NCBI GenBank assembly: GCA_030431475.1
Contig: JAUIJD010000048.1
Span: 1-36,643 of the forward strand
Source of the DNA: Verrucomicrobiia bacterium
GTDB lineage: Bacteria; Verrucomicrobiota; Verrucomicrobiia; Verrucomicrobiales; Akkermansiaceae
Length of the DNA stretch: 36,643 nt
Direction: 5' to 3'
The translations under genes were made by a program, and so were the position numbers. Each line of letters opens with the position of its first letter. Positions within the stretch are counted from its first letter, which is position 1. The notes beneath the pieces were generated by a model. It was given only the letters and a program-made list of their open reading frames with translations. It did no database searches and was not told the origin of the DNA. Positions 2,180 through 7,297 of this stretch are shown here, piece after piece.

Positions 2180-2341
2180 CCCGGGGGGCGTGAATTGCGG
2201 CATTGTCGATGGGTGAGAGTCCGTCGCCCCTTCAGGGCTCGGGGAGATTTTGGATACGGGCGTCCTGGCACCCGGGGCTCATCTCCATCGCCCCGTTGGG
2301 GCTTGTGTGGCGGGGGGGCGTGAATCGAGGCATTTGGTGAC
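2180..2341. repeat. GC-rich hairpin modules
   Basis: Two near-identical phrases beginning GGGGGGCGTGAAT (about 2180 and 2314) flank a module with ACCCGGGGC and the stem GCCCCGTTGGGGC (about 2297-2310). The same module occurs at 264-278. No coding content is seen. Confidence 0.5.
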
Positions 2342-2746
2342 TCGGGCTGTGCCGGATCTTCCCCCTACGCCACCACCTTCGCCAAGGCTAGGGCGGTCGA
2401 GACGGCTTCGGAGGACAGGTTTTCGTGCCGACTTCGTCGTGGAGCGGGGGACCCGGGGCGGCGCCCGGTGGGCGGGCTGACCCCGGGCTAGGTTCTCTGG
2501 CCCCGCTGGGTCCGGGAGTGGCGACTTCTTCGGGGAATCAAGGGCGGGGCACCGGCCTCGCGCATGAGTTGGTTGCAGGATTCCTTCGACAAGGAGCGGG
2601 CGCAGGCCGTCGGCGGGGAATGGGGAGAGCGGCTTTTCAAGCCGTGGGGTTCTCCGGGGATGGGGACGTCTGGGGAGCGAGCGGGAAGAAGCGGGTTGGC
2701 CGCCGACCCTGGTCGGGGTGCCTGCGGCAAAACCCGCTCTCCGTAT
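2342..2746. repeat. Composite intergenic repeat, copy A (~405 bp)
   Basis: It is clearly related over its whole length (roughly 90% or more by eye) to 5149-5554, in the same orientation. Module order is a diverged CGGGC hairpin; a conserved block starting CTACGCCACCACC with two inverted GCC-rich arms; an ACCCGGGGC/GACCCCGGG block; a 50-base piece (2561-2610) nearly identical to codons in the DUF1294 gene; and a GCGGGTT...AACCCGC hairpin. There are no transposase and no terminal inverted repeats. The two copies bracket the pentapeptide and DUF3024 genes. Confidence 0.75.
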
Positions 2747-2995
2747 TTTGAGCCGATTTCATAATCGGCGGTCCGCCCGGGGTACTGGAGTGAGAAGAAG
2801 CGGGTTGGCCGCCGACCCTAGTCGGGGTGCCTGCGGCAAAACCCGCTCTCCGTATTTTGAGCCGATTTCATAATCGGGGGTCCGCCCGGGGTACTGGAGC
2901 GGGAAGAAGCGGGTTGGCCGCCGACCCTGGTCGGGGTGCCTGCGGCAAAACCCGCTCTCCGTATTTTGAGCCGATTTCATCATCGGCGGTCCGGC
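2686..2995. repeat. Three tandem 109-bp double-hairpin units
   Basis: Units start at about 2686, 2795 and 2904, and the shared GCGGGTTGGCCGCC recurs at 2691, 2800 and 2909, so the period is exactly 109. Each unit holds hairpin 1, with outer stem GCGGGTT/AACCCGC and nested GCCGC/GCGGC and CCGA/TCGG pairs, and hairpin 2, CCGATT-tcat-AATCGG, followed by CGGTCCG and CCCGGGGTACTGGAG. The third unit has one base change in hairpin 2 and loses the tail. Copies are nearly identical, so expansion is recent. Partial copies lie at about 5490-5554 and 6486-6600. Confidence 0.8.
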
Positions 2996-3075
2996 TGGGG
3001 AGGTGGAAGAAGAAGCGAACCGGGGCCCTTTCAGCTTCACGAGAAAAGAGGAATCCGCTTTGTTTTTGGTTGAGC

Positions 3076-4746
3076 ATGAAAAGTTTCCTCTCCTTCACCT
3101 TCGGCCTCCCTCTTATCGCCTGCACCACGCTGCACGGAGCCAGCTACACGAAGACGAATGGCAGCATCGTGGACCCCATTCTGGACAATCTCGGTGCGGC
3201 TCACCCCTACTGCGGCTCGAATCTGGACGAGAACCTGACCAGGAGCTTCGCGAGTCTGAGTAATGCGGATCTCGAGGACGCGGACTTACGCTTCGCGCTC
3301 CTGACGAACGTCGACCTCAGCAATGCCGACCTTGGGAACGCCGATCTGCGCTTTGCGGTCCTGACGAACGTGAATCTAACCGGAGTCGATCTGGCTGGGG
3401 CTGATCTGAACAGCGCCGAACTTGATGGCGTGAACCTGGCAGGGGCGGATCTGTCAGATGTCGACCTGGGCAGCGCCATCCTCACGGGTGCTCAGGGCCA
3501 GCTCGCGGCATCGACGAACCTGTCAGTGCCGGCAGGCTACGTGCTTCACAATCAGTACCTGGTGGGCCCCGGTGCGATCCTGACAGGTGCGGACCTGAGC
3601 GGGATCGACGTCGACGGGATCGACTTGAGCGGAGCCGATCTCACCGGTGCCACGCTCACGGGGGTCGAGGGTGAGCTTGCCGGCTCGACGAACCTGACGC
3701 TCCCGCAGGGTTATGGGGTGGTGAATGACCTGATCGTCGGACCCGGTGCCAATCTGTCCCAAGCCCTCTTGTCCGGAGCCGATCTTCAAGGGGTCGACCT
3801 GAGCGGTGCCGACCTGACCTTTGCGCTACTGAACGACACCAACCTTGCGGACGTCGATTTCAGCGGTGCGACCATGACCTTCGCCCTCCTGAACAACGCG
3901 ACGCTCGGCGGAGCCGATCTATCGACTGCCGATCTGGGCAGCGCCGGCCTGACGGGCGTGCAGGGTCAGCTTTCGGCGGCCGCAGGTGTCAGCCTGCCGG
4001 CGGGCTATTTCGTGGCTGGCAATCACCTGGTCGGTCCGGGCGTGAACCTGGCGAACGCCAACCTTGCGGGCGTCAGCCTCAACGGGGTGAATCTGGACGG
4101 CGTGAATCTCAGTGGTGCCGACTTGAGTGGAGCCAGCGTGGAAACGGTCGGTCTCGATGGGGCCAACCTGGCGGGAGCGAACCTGAGCGGGGCGACATTC
4201 AACAATGCCGACCTTTCCAATGCCACGGTGAGCGGCGCACTTCTCACCAACGCCGATCTGGGCAACGCCAACGCCGCCGATGCCAACTTCGTCGGGGCCG
4301 ACTTGAGCGGCGCGGATCTGGGGAACGTGACCCTCACGAGTGCGGTGTTCACCGGCGCCCGCTACAATGAGAGCACCACCTTTCCTGGAGGGGCCGACCC
4401 GCTGGCGCTGGGGATGATCCTGAACAGCCTGGATACCGATGGCGACGGGGTGGCCGATTTTGTTGAGTTGGCCTTCGGGGGAGATCCCAACGATGGCACC
4501 GACGCCCATCTCGTCGCCACGGCCGTGGCTGAGCGGGAGGAGAAATTCACCGAGGAGCAGATCCTGGATCTGCGGGTGGGTGGAGTGATGTTGCAGCGGG
4601 ACGGGGCGAACTTCACCCTGAACTACAGCATCGAAGAGTCCGAGGACCTTCTGACCTGGACCCCCTTCGCGGAGCAACCCGGGCCCTTCGTGTTTGCCCC
4701 GGGTGATGCCGACAAGAAGTTCGTGCACATCACGATCGAAGAGTAG
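3076..4746 (+). CDS. Exported pentapeptide-repeat protein
   Basis: The 556-residue product begins MKSFLSFTFGLPLIAC, a short export signal; LIAC could be a lipoprotein box with Cys16 lipidated, although the basic region is short. Residues 60-430 are A(D/N)LXX pentapeptide repeats (ADLSG, ADLGN, VDLSG and similar), which fold as a right-handed quadrilateral beta-helix. They are interrupted three times (about 139-167, 197-226, 295-323) by a related ~30-residue insert containing LPxGY and VGPG. DTDGDGVADFVE at 453-464 is a calcium-binding type 3 loop, followed by a short beta-rich tail of the kind found at the C-terminus of many exported verrucomicrobial proteins. ATG 3076 was chosen over longer in-frame starts because those would translate the tandem repeats. 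The function is unknown; the DUF3024 gene starts 11 bases after its stop. Confidence 0.85.
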   Translation: MKSFLSFTFGLPLIACTTLHGASYTKTNGSIVDPILDNLGAAHPYCGSNLDENLTRSFASLSNADLEDADLRFALLTNVDLSNADLGNADLRFAVLTNVNLTGVDLAGADLNSAELDGVNLAGADLSDVDLGSAILTGAQGQLAASTNLSVPAGYVLHNQYLVGPGAILTGADLSGIDVDGIDLSGADLTGATLTGVEGELAGSTNLTLPQGYGVVNDLIVGPGANLSQALLSGADLQGVDLSGADLTFALLNDTNLADVDFSGATMTFALLNNATLGGADLSTADLGSAGLTGVQGQLSAAAGVSLPAGYFVAGNHLVGPGVNLANANLAGVSLNGVNLDGVNLSGADLSGASVETVGLDGANLAGANLSGATFNNADLSNATVSGALLTNADLGNANAADANFVGADLSGADLGNVTLTSAVFTGARYNESTTFPGGADPLALGMILNSLDTDGDGVADFVELAFGGDPNDGTDAHLVATAVAEREEKFTEEQILDLRVGGVMLQRDGANFTLNYSIEESEDLLTWTPFAEQPGPFVFAPGDADKKFVHITIEE

Positions 4747-4757
4747 GCCCATTCCGC

Positions 4758-5108
4758 ATGGCATTCACGGGAGACGAAACGGAAGTGATTCTCCGACAGT
4801 TGGAGGAGGAATTCTGGGTCCGCCATCGCCCGCCGCTTCGTTTGCGGGACAAGGTGCGCGAGGGCCAGCGGATCGACGGGCATGCCATCGAGCTGTTTCT
4901 CAATCGTCCCGCCTTCCAGCGTCCGGGAAAGTGGATCGAGGAACGGATTGCCAGGATCCGCTACTTCCGGTCGCGTGATGCATGGGCGATCTACTGGCAA
5001 CGGGCGGACCTCAAGTGGCACCGCTTTGAGCCCTGCCCCGAGACCCGATCCCTGCCGGAAGCCTTGGCCGTGATCAGCGAGGATGAATACGCCTGCTTCG
5101 TCGGCTGA
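4758..5108 (+). CDS. DUF3024 family protein
   Basis: The 116-residue soluble protein has the DUF3024 signature in its C-terminal half: ARIRYFRSRDAWAIYW, then RADLKWHRFEP, then SLPEALAVISEDEYACFVG. Length and motif order fit the family, which is small, widespread and without known biochemical function. The start at ATG 4758 lies 11 bases after the pentapeptide gene, so co-transcription is likely. The stop codon sits in a small inverted repeat, CTGACC/GGTCAG (5105-5123), which has no T-tract and is at best a weak terminator. The composite repeat copy B begins 40 bases further. Confidence 0.85.
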   Translation: MAFTGDETEVILRQLEEEFWVRHRPPLRLRDKVREGQRIDGHAIELFLNRPAFQRPGKWIEERIARIRYFRSRDAWAIYWQRADLKWHRFEPCPETRSLPEALAVISEDEYACFVG

Positions 5109-5148
5109 CCTGTCGAGGGTCAGACGGTGACTCTCGGCCTTCGTGGAA

Positions 5149-5554
5149 TCGGGCTGCGCCCGATCTTCCCCCTACGCCACCACCTTCGCCAAGGCTAGGG
5201 CGGTCGAGAAGGCTTCGGAGGACAGGTCTTCGTGCCGACATCCTCGGGCATCGGGGGACCCGGGGCGGCGCCCGGTGGGCGGGCTGACCCCGGGCTAGGT
5301 TCTCTGGCCCCGCTGGGTCCGGGAGTGGCGACTTCGTTAGGGAATCAAGGGGCGGGGCACCGGCCTCGCGCATGAGTTGGTTGCAGGATCCCTTCGACAA
5401 GGAGCGGGCGCAGGCCGTCGGCGGGGAATGGGGAGAGCGGCTTTTCGAGCCGCGGGGTTTTCGGGGATGGGGACGTCTGGGGATGGAGCGGGAAGAAGCG
5501 GGTTGGCCGCCGACCCTGGTCGGGGTGCCTGCGGCAAAACCCGCTCTCTCTATT
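5149..5554. repeat. Composite intergenic repeat, copy B (~406 bp)
   Basis: This is the direct repeat of 2342-2746. The opening hairpin is intact here (ATCGGGC-tgc-GCCCGAT). The DUF1294-derived piece is at 5369-5418. The element ends with a single GCGGGTT...AACCCGC hairpin, without the second hairpin and without tandem copies. Confidence 0.75.
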
Positions 5555-5627
5555 GGGTCCGGCATCGGATGAATCCCGCCCTCGCCGTCGAGCTTGCCGG
5601 GGGGCGGATTCGGGGATACTCGGAGCC

Positions 5628-6311: not shown

Positions 6312-6610
6312 GAGGGGTGAAGGGAGGAGTCGGGGCGTGGGTTGGCGGCGGCTTGGGTTGATGGGGCTTGTGGGGTTGTGGTGAGCTGGGTTGGTGGAGT
6401 CGCGGGGTTGCGGTAGCGGGGTTGCGGTAGCGGGGTTGCGGTAGCGGGGTTGCGGTAGCGGGGTTGCGGTAGCGGGGTTGCGGTAGCGGGTTGGAAACCC
6501 GCTCTCCTTAGGGGGTGCCGATTTCATAATCGGCGGTCCGTCCCGGGGTTGATGCAGCGGGTTGCAAACCCGCTCTCCTGATTGGCGCGGGTTGCCAACT
6601 TGCTGTCTCG
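6312..6610. other. Repeat-filled intergenic region
   Basis: There is no coding content. It holds the 14-base tandem repeat at 6402-6485, then GCGGGTTGGAAACCCGC, then the CCGATT/AATCGG hairpin with CGGTCCG (about 6523-6542), then GCGGGTTGCAAACCCGC (about 6558-6574). These last three are simplified versions of the modules in the 109-bp units. Confidence 0.7.
6402..6485. repeat. 14-bp tandem repeat, six perfect copies
   Basis: The unit GCGGGGTTGCGGTA is repeated six times without a mismatch, then merges into a GCGGGTT hairpin module. Perfect copies suggest recent slippage and likely length variation between strains. Confidence 0.9.
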
Positions 6611-7297
6611 ATGGGTAGCGTCCGTGCGCTGATGAACCCCGCCCAAATCAAGAACATCTTCTGGGACGTCGATGGGGTCCTGGCGGACCTGAATTACGCC
6701 TACTTCCATTTTCTCACCGGGCACCCGAACTACCGGGAGCGCTACGCGGGGCTGAAGTGGGAGCAGTTGCCCGAGGTGCTGCCCATCGTGCCGGAGTACG
6801 GGGCGCTGGAGCTGAAGACGCATCCGGAGCTGGGGAAGGCCATGGACCGCGACTTCTGCGCGGATCAGGACTTCTTCCGCAATCGGCCGCTGTATCCGAA
6901 GGTGATCGAGACGCTGAAGCGGCTGAACGATCGTGGGTATCGCCAGTTCACGATGTCGGCGACCTTCGACGTGGAGGCGAAGACGGCCTACCTGAACGAG
7001 ATCCTCGCGCCGGTGACGGACTTCCTGACGATCGAGTGCGTGCAGCACGGGGAGTTCATGCACGACACGGCGAAGGTCGATCGGCTGCGGGAGTGCTACC
7101 GGAAGTATGAGCTGGAGCCGACCGAGACCATCCTCGTCGATGACCGCATCTACAACCAGCACGCGGCGATCGAGTCGGGCGCGCATCCGGTGCGGCTGCG
7201 GTGTGAGTTCACGACGGATCTGCCGGAAGAGCTGGCGTGGATCCCGGAGTTCAAGGATGTGGAGGCGGTGGCGGATTGGTTGGTGGGGGAAGGGTGA
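6611..7297 (+). CDS. HAD family hydrolase
   Basis: The protein carries the four haloacid-dehalogenase motifs: motif I DVDGVLAD near the N-terminus (first Asp the nucleophile, second the acid/base), motif II Ser/Thr in TMSATF, a motif III Lys in DTAKVDR, and motif IV LVDDR for Mg2+. It should be a Mg2+-dependent phosphatase of ~228 residues; the substrate cannot be told. A cap region with EYGALELKTHPEL lies between motifs I and II. Two starts are possible, ATG 6611 and ATG 6632 (MNPAQIKN); neither has a clear ribosome-binding site. It is followed 99 bases later by phoH. Confidence 0.85.
   Translation: MGSVRALMNPAQIKNIFWDVDGVLADLNYAYFHFLTGHPNYRERYAGLKWEQLPEVLPIVPEYGALELKTHPELGKAMDRDFCADQDFFRNRPLYPKVIETLKRLNDRGYRQFTMSATFDVEAKTAYLNEILAPVTDFLTIECVQHGEFMHDTAKVDRLRECYRKYELEPTETILVDDRIYNQHAAIESGAHPVRLRCEFTTDLPEELAWIPEFKDVEAVADWLVGEG

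Follow-up and report, generated by a model that had tools for sequence, protein, structure and literature searches.

The tandem array and its two hairpins

The window analysed here is the whole 36,643-nucleotide stretch of contig C91 from a Verrucomicrobiia genome of the family Akkermansiaceae (G000), which was searched in full (4.73 Mb, 109 contigs). At 2679–3000 on the plus strand it carries a tandem array with a period of 109 bp, 3.0 copies, 94% matches and a score of 588 (TRF), which bears out the three tandem double-hairpin units described in the initial annotation. The units start at 2679, 2788 and 2897 and run head to tail, with copies 2 and 3 being 95% and 92% identical to copy 1.

TRF and repeat-family comparison both delimit the array, and each unit consists of two hairpins that are oriented alike. 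The first, REP-A, has the form GCGGGTT...AACCCGC followed by TCTCC and is found at 2691–2742 (folding, pattern match and alignment), 2800–2851 and 2909–2960 (pattern match and alignment). The second, REP-B, reads GCCGATT TCAT AATCGGC followed in the window copies by the tag GGTCC, and pattern matches place it at 2753–2774, 2862–2883 and 2971–2992. The plain REP-A copies at 6486 and 6557, when aligned with that of the array, show the latter to be a nested form, a plain REP-A with 30 nt inserted in its loop; in predicted structures this insert itself folds. Folding of the single-stranded DNA gives z scores, relative to dinucleotide shuffles, of −2.7 (plus strand) and −3.2 (minus strand) for the array unit, −3.0 for 5486–5560 and −4.1 for 6484–6600. 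With up to 3 mismatches, the REP-A and REP-B patterns match four window sites each, against 0.00 in 100 shuffles. The array is thus confirmed, and its 109-bp unit is formed by two different REP hairpins joined together.

Other REP copies and repeats in the window

Pattern matching also located two minus-strand REP-A copies, opposed to plus-strand ones, that the initial annotation does not mention. The copy at 2624–2645 lies in REPIN geometry with REP-A copy 1 of the array (2691, plus strand), the tags pointing outward, and the copy at 5432–5453 belongs to a second pair, in which it faces a nested REP-A at 5498–5549 (plus strand; blast and alignment). The latter region, 5490–5554, had been described as a stripped form of the unit, which does not hold: the whole nested REP-A is kept (97% over 69 nt), REP-B is absent, and the tag is TCTCT in place of TCTCC. 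The region 6486–6600, described in the same way, consists of a plain REP-A (6486–6507), a REP-B whose 22 nt are identical to copy 1 (6518–6539), a second plain REP-A (6557–6578) and a decayed REP-A that extends to 6615 (6587–6615, a 76% repeat-family match), all on the plus strand. The plain REP-A copies were identified by pattern match and alignment, and the REP-B by pattern match. A 14-bp G-rich tandem repeat of 6.4 copies (6402–6490, plus strand; TRF) reaches into the REP-A at 6486. The REP copies of the window sit between Pfam-supported genes, the position of one copy depending on the chosen start codon: with the first ATG (6611) as start, the final 5 nt of the decayed REP-A at 6587–6615 would fall within the following gene.

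Preceding the array is a 340-bp repeat (2320–2658), of which repeat comparison finds a second copy, 90–92% alike, at 5127–5466, both on the plus strand. Parts of it match 193–301 and 851–906, the latter within a DUF1294 gene (486–1121), so that one stretch of the repeat resembles part of that gene. The repeat was considered as a RAYT and rejected, since C91 has zero Y1_Tnp matches and parts of the repeat match 193–301 and the DUF1294 gene. A G+C-rich block with small palindromes occurs upstream of the DUF1294 gene (193–301) and in both 340-bp repeats (2428–2535 and 5235–5341). Across 2320–5549, a pentapeptide-repeat gene and a DUF3024 gene lie between the two direct repeats, each of which is followed by nested REP-A.

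REP-A and REP-B in the genome

The possibility that the hairpins have no further copies was not borne out. At up to 3 mismatches, REP-B has 77 sites in the genome (38 plus, 39 minus), with 0 in the reversed-pattern control. REP-A has 37 (control 0), or 44 with a degenerate pattern (control 1). The initial annotation had treated the double hairpin as one family. There are instead two REP families, and each has copies next to a RAYT gene or genes of its own (see below). A REP-A with a REP-B after it within 250 bp was seen at five places, of which this window contains four.

Successive neighbours within 250 bp were compared for the 77 REP-B and 56 REP-A-type sites; the latter list omits the overlapping long matches at C52:18577 and C53:36611–36654, and the window copies at 2624 (−), 5432 (−) and 5498 (+), which the search patterns do not match. 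The neighbours comprise 26 B−B+, 8 A−A+, 5 A+B+, 5 A−A−, 3 B+A+ and 1 A+A+, so that same-orientation and mixed arrangements are also present. Among these sites there are no B+B− or A+A− neighbours with tags pointing inward. All inverted same-family neighbours therefore point outward, as in REPINs.

The REP-B sites end in GCTCC (foot GGAG) in 67 of the 77 cases, in GGTCC in 6, and in GTTCC and GCTTC in 2 each, while 36 of the 37 REP-A sites end in CTCC; these shares are upper bounds because the tag was within the search patterns. On the opposite strand, where the foot lies 5′ of the hairpin, it reads GGAG (GGAC for the REP-B copies of the window) and not the canonical GT[AG]G. Stem conservation was assessed on the distinct 22-mers, 15 from the 37-site REP-A list and 16 from the 77-site REP-B list. 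In REP-A 97.1% of stem cells are paired and there are 6 both-side changes, each value being reached by 0 of 500 shuffles; the number of pairs changed on both sides is reached in 79 of the 500, and that of further pair types in 76. For REP-B the paired share is 92.7% of stem cells (reached by 37 of 500 shuffles), both-side changes number 2 (9 of 500), and 7 of 16 variants have a broken loop-closing pair. The stems are thus mostly paired in both families, and the unconserved stems that would have spoken against the initial annotation were not seen, though the covariation signal for REP-B is modest.

A pattern for nested REP-A has 5 matches in the genome, three in the window array and one each on C53 and C87, and misses the fourth nested window copy (5498) because of its tag. 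The C53 match is a chance span across a plain REP-A, and that on C87 (29124–29176) is a REP-A with a different loop insert, so the nested hairpin was rejected as a genome-wide element. The C87 insert suggests that REP-A loop insertions arose more than once.

RAYT genes beside the REPs

The window encodes no RAYT, and to that extent the absence of a mobilizing enzyme noted initially stands. It does not extend to the genome, in which a profile search gives 19 Y1_Tnp matches, three of them beside REP-A or REP-B. The RAYT at C34:20898 (RAYT-B) has 4 REP-B within 1.5 kb, and those at C93:4885 (RAYT-A1) and C93:186851 (RAYT-A2) have 6 and 7 REP-A-type copies within the same distance. The area-based chances, multiplied by 19, are 5e-6, 1e-8 (for at least 5 copies) and 3e-13, respectively. 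The remaining 16 of the 19 loci have neither REP-A nor REP-B within 1.5 kb, and several of them are flanked by other hairpins.

RAYT-B passes the NCBIfam RAYT model NF047646 (93.6 bits against a cut-off of 80), whereas RAYT-A1 and RAYT-A2 fall below that cut-off with 69.1 and 72.1 bits. In the PDB, RAYT-B matches a single entry, TnpArep (4er8; E 4e-4), whose HxH and Y-x-x-x-N-P stretches align with its own. RAYT-A1 and RAYT-A2 are sisters (support 99/97) in a tree of 40 RAYT domains.

Adjoining RAYT-A2 is a 145-bp unit with REP-A copies, repeated 3.9 times in tandem. Every unit contains a minus-strand REP-A, and a plus-strand partner whose CTCC tag is intact is present only in the last. The array is followed by 33 copies of a 14-bp repeat (L031:2120–2572, G000:C93), which differs in sequence from that at 6402–6490 in the window. 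The arrangement beside RAYT-A2 resembles the 109-bp array and 14-bp repeat of the window.

Comparison with related genomes

When the 109-bp unit was searched in 37 relatives, matches were obtained only in G002 and G017 and only in the REP-B part. A distant blastn search of 2300–3020 against a phage collection gave zero matches. Were REPs tied to particular RAYTs, the hairpins beside related RAYTs would be expected to be related too, and this prediction was examined across species. Four stems each occur beside the RAYTs of one supported tree group: GCGCGAC in G000, G001 and G017, ATCGACA in G000 and G002, TGGC in G000 and G017, and GGCACC in G002 and G017. The comparison covers the flanks of part of the members (those of G001_C25 and G001_C132 are not included), and in one member of the GCGCGAC group, G002_C1_3901, no such hairpin was found in the flanks.

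The best G017 match to RAYT-B (60%) is surrounded by four GCCGAT/ATCGGC hairpins with GGTCC tags, one pair with the tags outward and the other with the tags inward. The tree does not resolve this RAYT and RAYT-B as sisters. None of the 5 REP-B matches in G002 lies near any of the 9 places where that genome matches the RAYT-B query, and the two closest of these RAYT-B matches (54%) have no REP-B flank. Overall, related stems are mostly retained beside related RAYTs of the congeners.

RAYTs in frame within host genes

One RAYT of the genome, at C23:34417, is in frame inside ispG (L161, G000:C23:32000–37500), and another, at C29:5482, is in frame inside a DUF5107-TPR gene (L162, G000:C29). A RAYT is present at the same IspG hinge in six open full-length genes, from G000, G002 and G017 and at the named loci L185, L186 and L187 (the six loci being L161, L155, L171 and L185–L187). 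Three congeners have DUF5107-TPR genes with an in-frame RAYT, namely L162 (G000), L154 (G001) and L177 (G017), the last cut before DUF5107. In the scan of the ispG-RAYT frames (all but L186 and L187), Pfam Y1_Tnp is reported at 0.001 in P0002, L171 and L185; in the ispG frame of G002, where no Y1_Tnp was seen at 0.001, the RAYT is identified by sequence comparison.

The ispG loci were classed for 77 of the best 80 (all but L193, L241 and L248). Three of the 77 (L185–L187) carry a RAYT, a proportion that is not a frequency because the loci are the best 80 among 590 and the insert itself contains two of the six peptides used in the search. At the partial locus L193 the same insert begins, and a stop follows six residues before the contig end. 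The insert is absent from ispG at L188 and L190. At L194 (Haloferula rosea) there is no RAYT, but the residues VERDAPAT resemble part of the 3′ REP peptide found elsewhere and are possibly a footprint. Among the named loci without the insert, ispG of Luteolibacter marinus has the highest best-segment identity to G000 ispG (90%).

REP hairpins flank the ispG RAYT on both sides and, judged from the DNA, would be read as peptide. In all six genes GTGG (five genes) or GTAG (L187) stands immediately before one or more of the 5′ hairpins, and CCAC immediately after one or more of the 3′ hairpins. One clade (100/99) unites the six ispG RAYTs with the three TPR RAYTs, and in it the two host groups are sisters, each a clade of its own (96/95 and 100/97). 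This pattern fits old insertions that would have been inherited since.

At other loci one open frame joins Y1_Tnp with an Eco57I methylase, adenosine deaminase, glycosyltransferase, NUDIX or CinA domain, and another joins MnmG with a RAYT-like stretch that Pfam at 0.001 does not report. These fusion loci are L156, L157, L158, L159, L160 and L175; L153, which lacks a host domain, is not counted. The products of such frames would be fusion proteins. No description of a RAYT in frame inside ispG was found in the literature covered, with subscription papers mostly outside its scope. PMC5771137 was rejected as a precedent, ISPg being, in the text of that paper available, the name of an insertion sequence and not ispG. 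We give roughly an even chance to a reading in which this RAYT lineage is a branch of the REP/RAYT system that moved out of intergenic DNA and became a translated in-frame domain at the IspG hinge and in the DUF5107-TPR protein, inherited across species with its GTGG/GTAG-tagged REP hairpins as linker peptides, and in which other RAYTs encoded by this genome act on the GGAG-tagged hairpins of the window. If so, housekeeping enzymes would carry a domesticated single-strand nuclease.

Discussion

The array is part of a REP/RAYT system, as its dispersed palindromes, conserved foot, outward inverted pairs and neighbouring RAYTs with HUH and Y1 motifs indicate. It is a variant of that kind and not a canonical GTAG REP, because its foot is not GT[AG]G and the published REP-like classes 2.6 and 3 likewise differ from that motif, according to the part of PMC6006769 consulted. 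The REP-like nature proposed initially is upheld by the dispersed families, paired stems, inverted pairing and RAYT adjacency. The REP, BIME and REPIN elements of E. coli, Pseudomonas and Stenotrophomonas and their RAYT (TnpAREP), in the accessible portions of PMC6006769 and PMC8266576, are similar in being short dispersed palindromes with inverted pairs whose feet point outward, and in that families go with an HUH-Y1 gene, several families may share a genome, and clusters occur. Relative to the systems of these accounts, the present one differs in its GGAG/GGAC foot instead of GT[AG]G, in a tandem unit that joins two families, and in the ten RAYT tree rows that come from a single genome.

As described in the sections seen of Di Nocera et al. 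(2013, PMC3733652), the verrucomicrobial O. terrae is rich in REPs, and the loops of GTAG REPs in Bradyrhizobium end in GCGG/CCGC and are self-complementary in their inner part. A CCGC/GCGG-ended hairpin inside the REP loop is found here too. Unlike those loops, the nested form was found in four copies within 2.9 kb and at one locus with a different insert, and no word starting with GGAG occurs in the text of that source that was available. The Rickettsia palindromic elements and other intragenic REPs mentioned in the same portion of text are also palindromes read in frame within genes, as in ispG, although in that text they are palindromes only and the ispG case includes a whole RAYT.

It is very probable that the array consists of two REP families, each most likely the substrate of a RAYT encoded elsewhere, and that an A+B segment was triplicated in tandem. 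Direct observation covers the sequence with its copy numbers and geometry, the RAYTs adjacent to REPs, and the occurrence of related stems beside related RAYTs; from these we infer cutting and transfer by the RAYTs, mobility, the order in which the array was built and the way its units were copied in tandem. As set out in the parts examined of PMC8266576 and PMC6006769, TnpAREP acts on a folded single strand, which it recognizes along with the foot on the 5′ side of the hairpin and then cuts and rejoins. By analogy, a RAYT (an HUH/Y1 single-strand nuclease) may recognize the folded REP with its GGAG or GGAC foot, cut and rejoin it, and in this way could spread REPs, often as inverted pairs (REPINs). 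One loop of a REP-A pair in the window would have gained the 30-nt folding insert, and a REP-B would then have come to adjoin the nested REP-A. Finally, slippage or unequal recombination would probably have multiplied the A+B segment into three tandem units, a step for which a transposase would not be needed.

The hairpins might instead be RNA elements, kept as terminators, attenuators or mRNA stabilizers, with mobility incidental or past. Their position between Pfam-supported genes (with the possible 5-nt overlap at 6587–6615) and their mostly paired stems agree with this. However, read directly from the sequence, they are followed by TCTCC or GGTCC and not by a T run, Rfam at gathering thresholds matches only two tRNAs in the window, and the outward inverted pairing and RAYT adjacency are left without explanation. 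We consider this account unlikely in place of a REP/RAYT origin, with which it can coexist.

A minisatellite grown by slippage, with hairpins arising only from composition, is very unlikely: the head-to-tail units and the 14-bp satellite close by are what it predicts, but the same hairpins at dozens of other sites, single or as inverted pairs, contradict it as a full explanation, and slippage may account for the triplication only. Least probable of all is a MITE, the whole 109-bp unit being moved by a DDE transposase. The unit is short, non-coding and repeated, but no terminal inverted repeats bound it among the 25/26 inverted pairs listed, which leaves the initial MITE-like label unsupported. 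Outside the window the unit matches only in its REP-B part, REP-A followed by REP-B occurs there once, and the genome search with the unit revealed no intact copy at an unrelated locus.

Under the REP/RAYT interpretation the repeat is now placed in a mechanism, and its likely enzymes are named: the search for a RAYT gene that was initially suggested led to C34:20898 for REP-B and to C93:4885 and C93:186851 for REP-A. The GGAG-type foot, the two families in one tandem unit and the nested loop distinguish this variant within the known REP/RAYT kind. A genome with several RAYT–REP pairs, and with feet unlike GTAG, offers a natural setting in which to test foot recognition by RAYTs, and its in-frame RAYTs raise the question of whether a single-strand transposase can exist as a domain within host genes.
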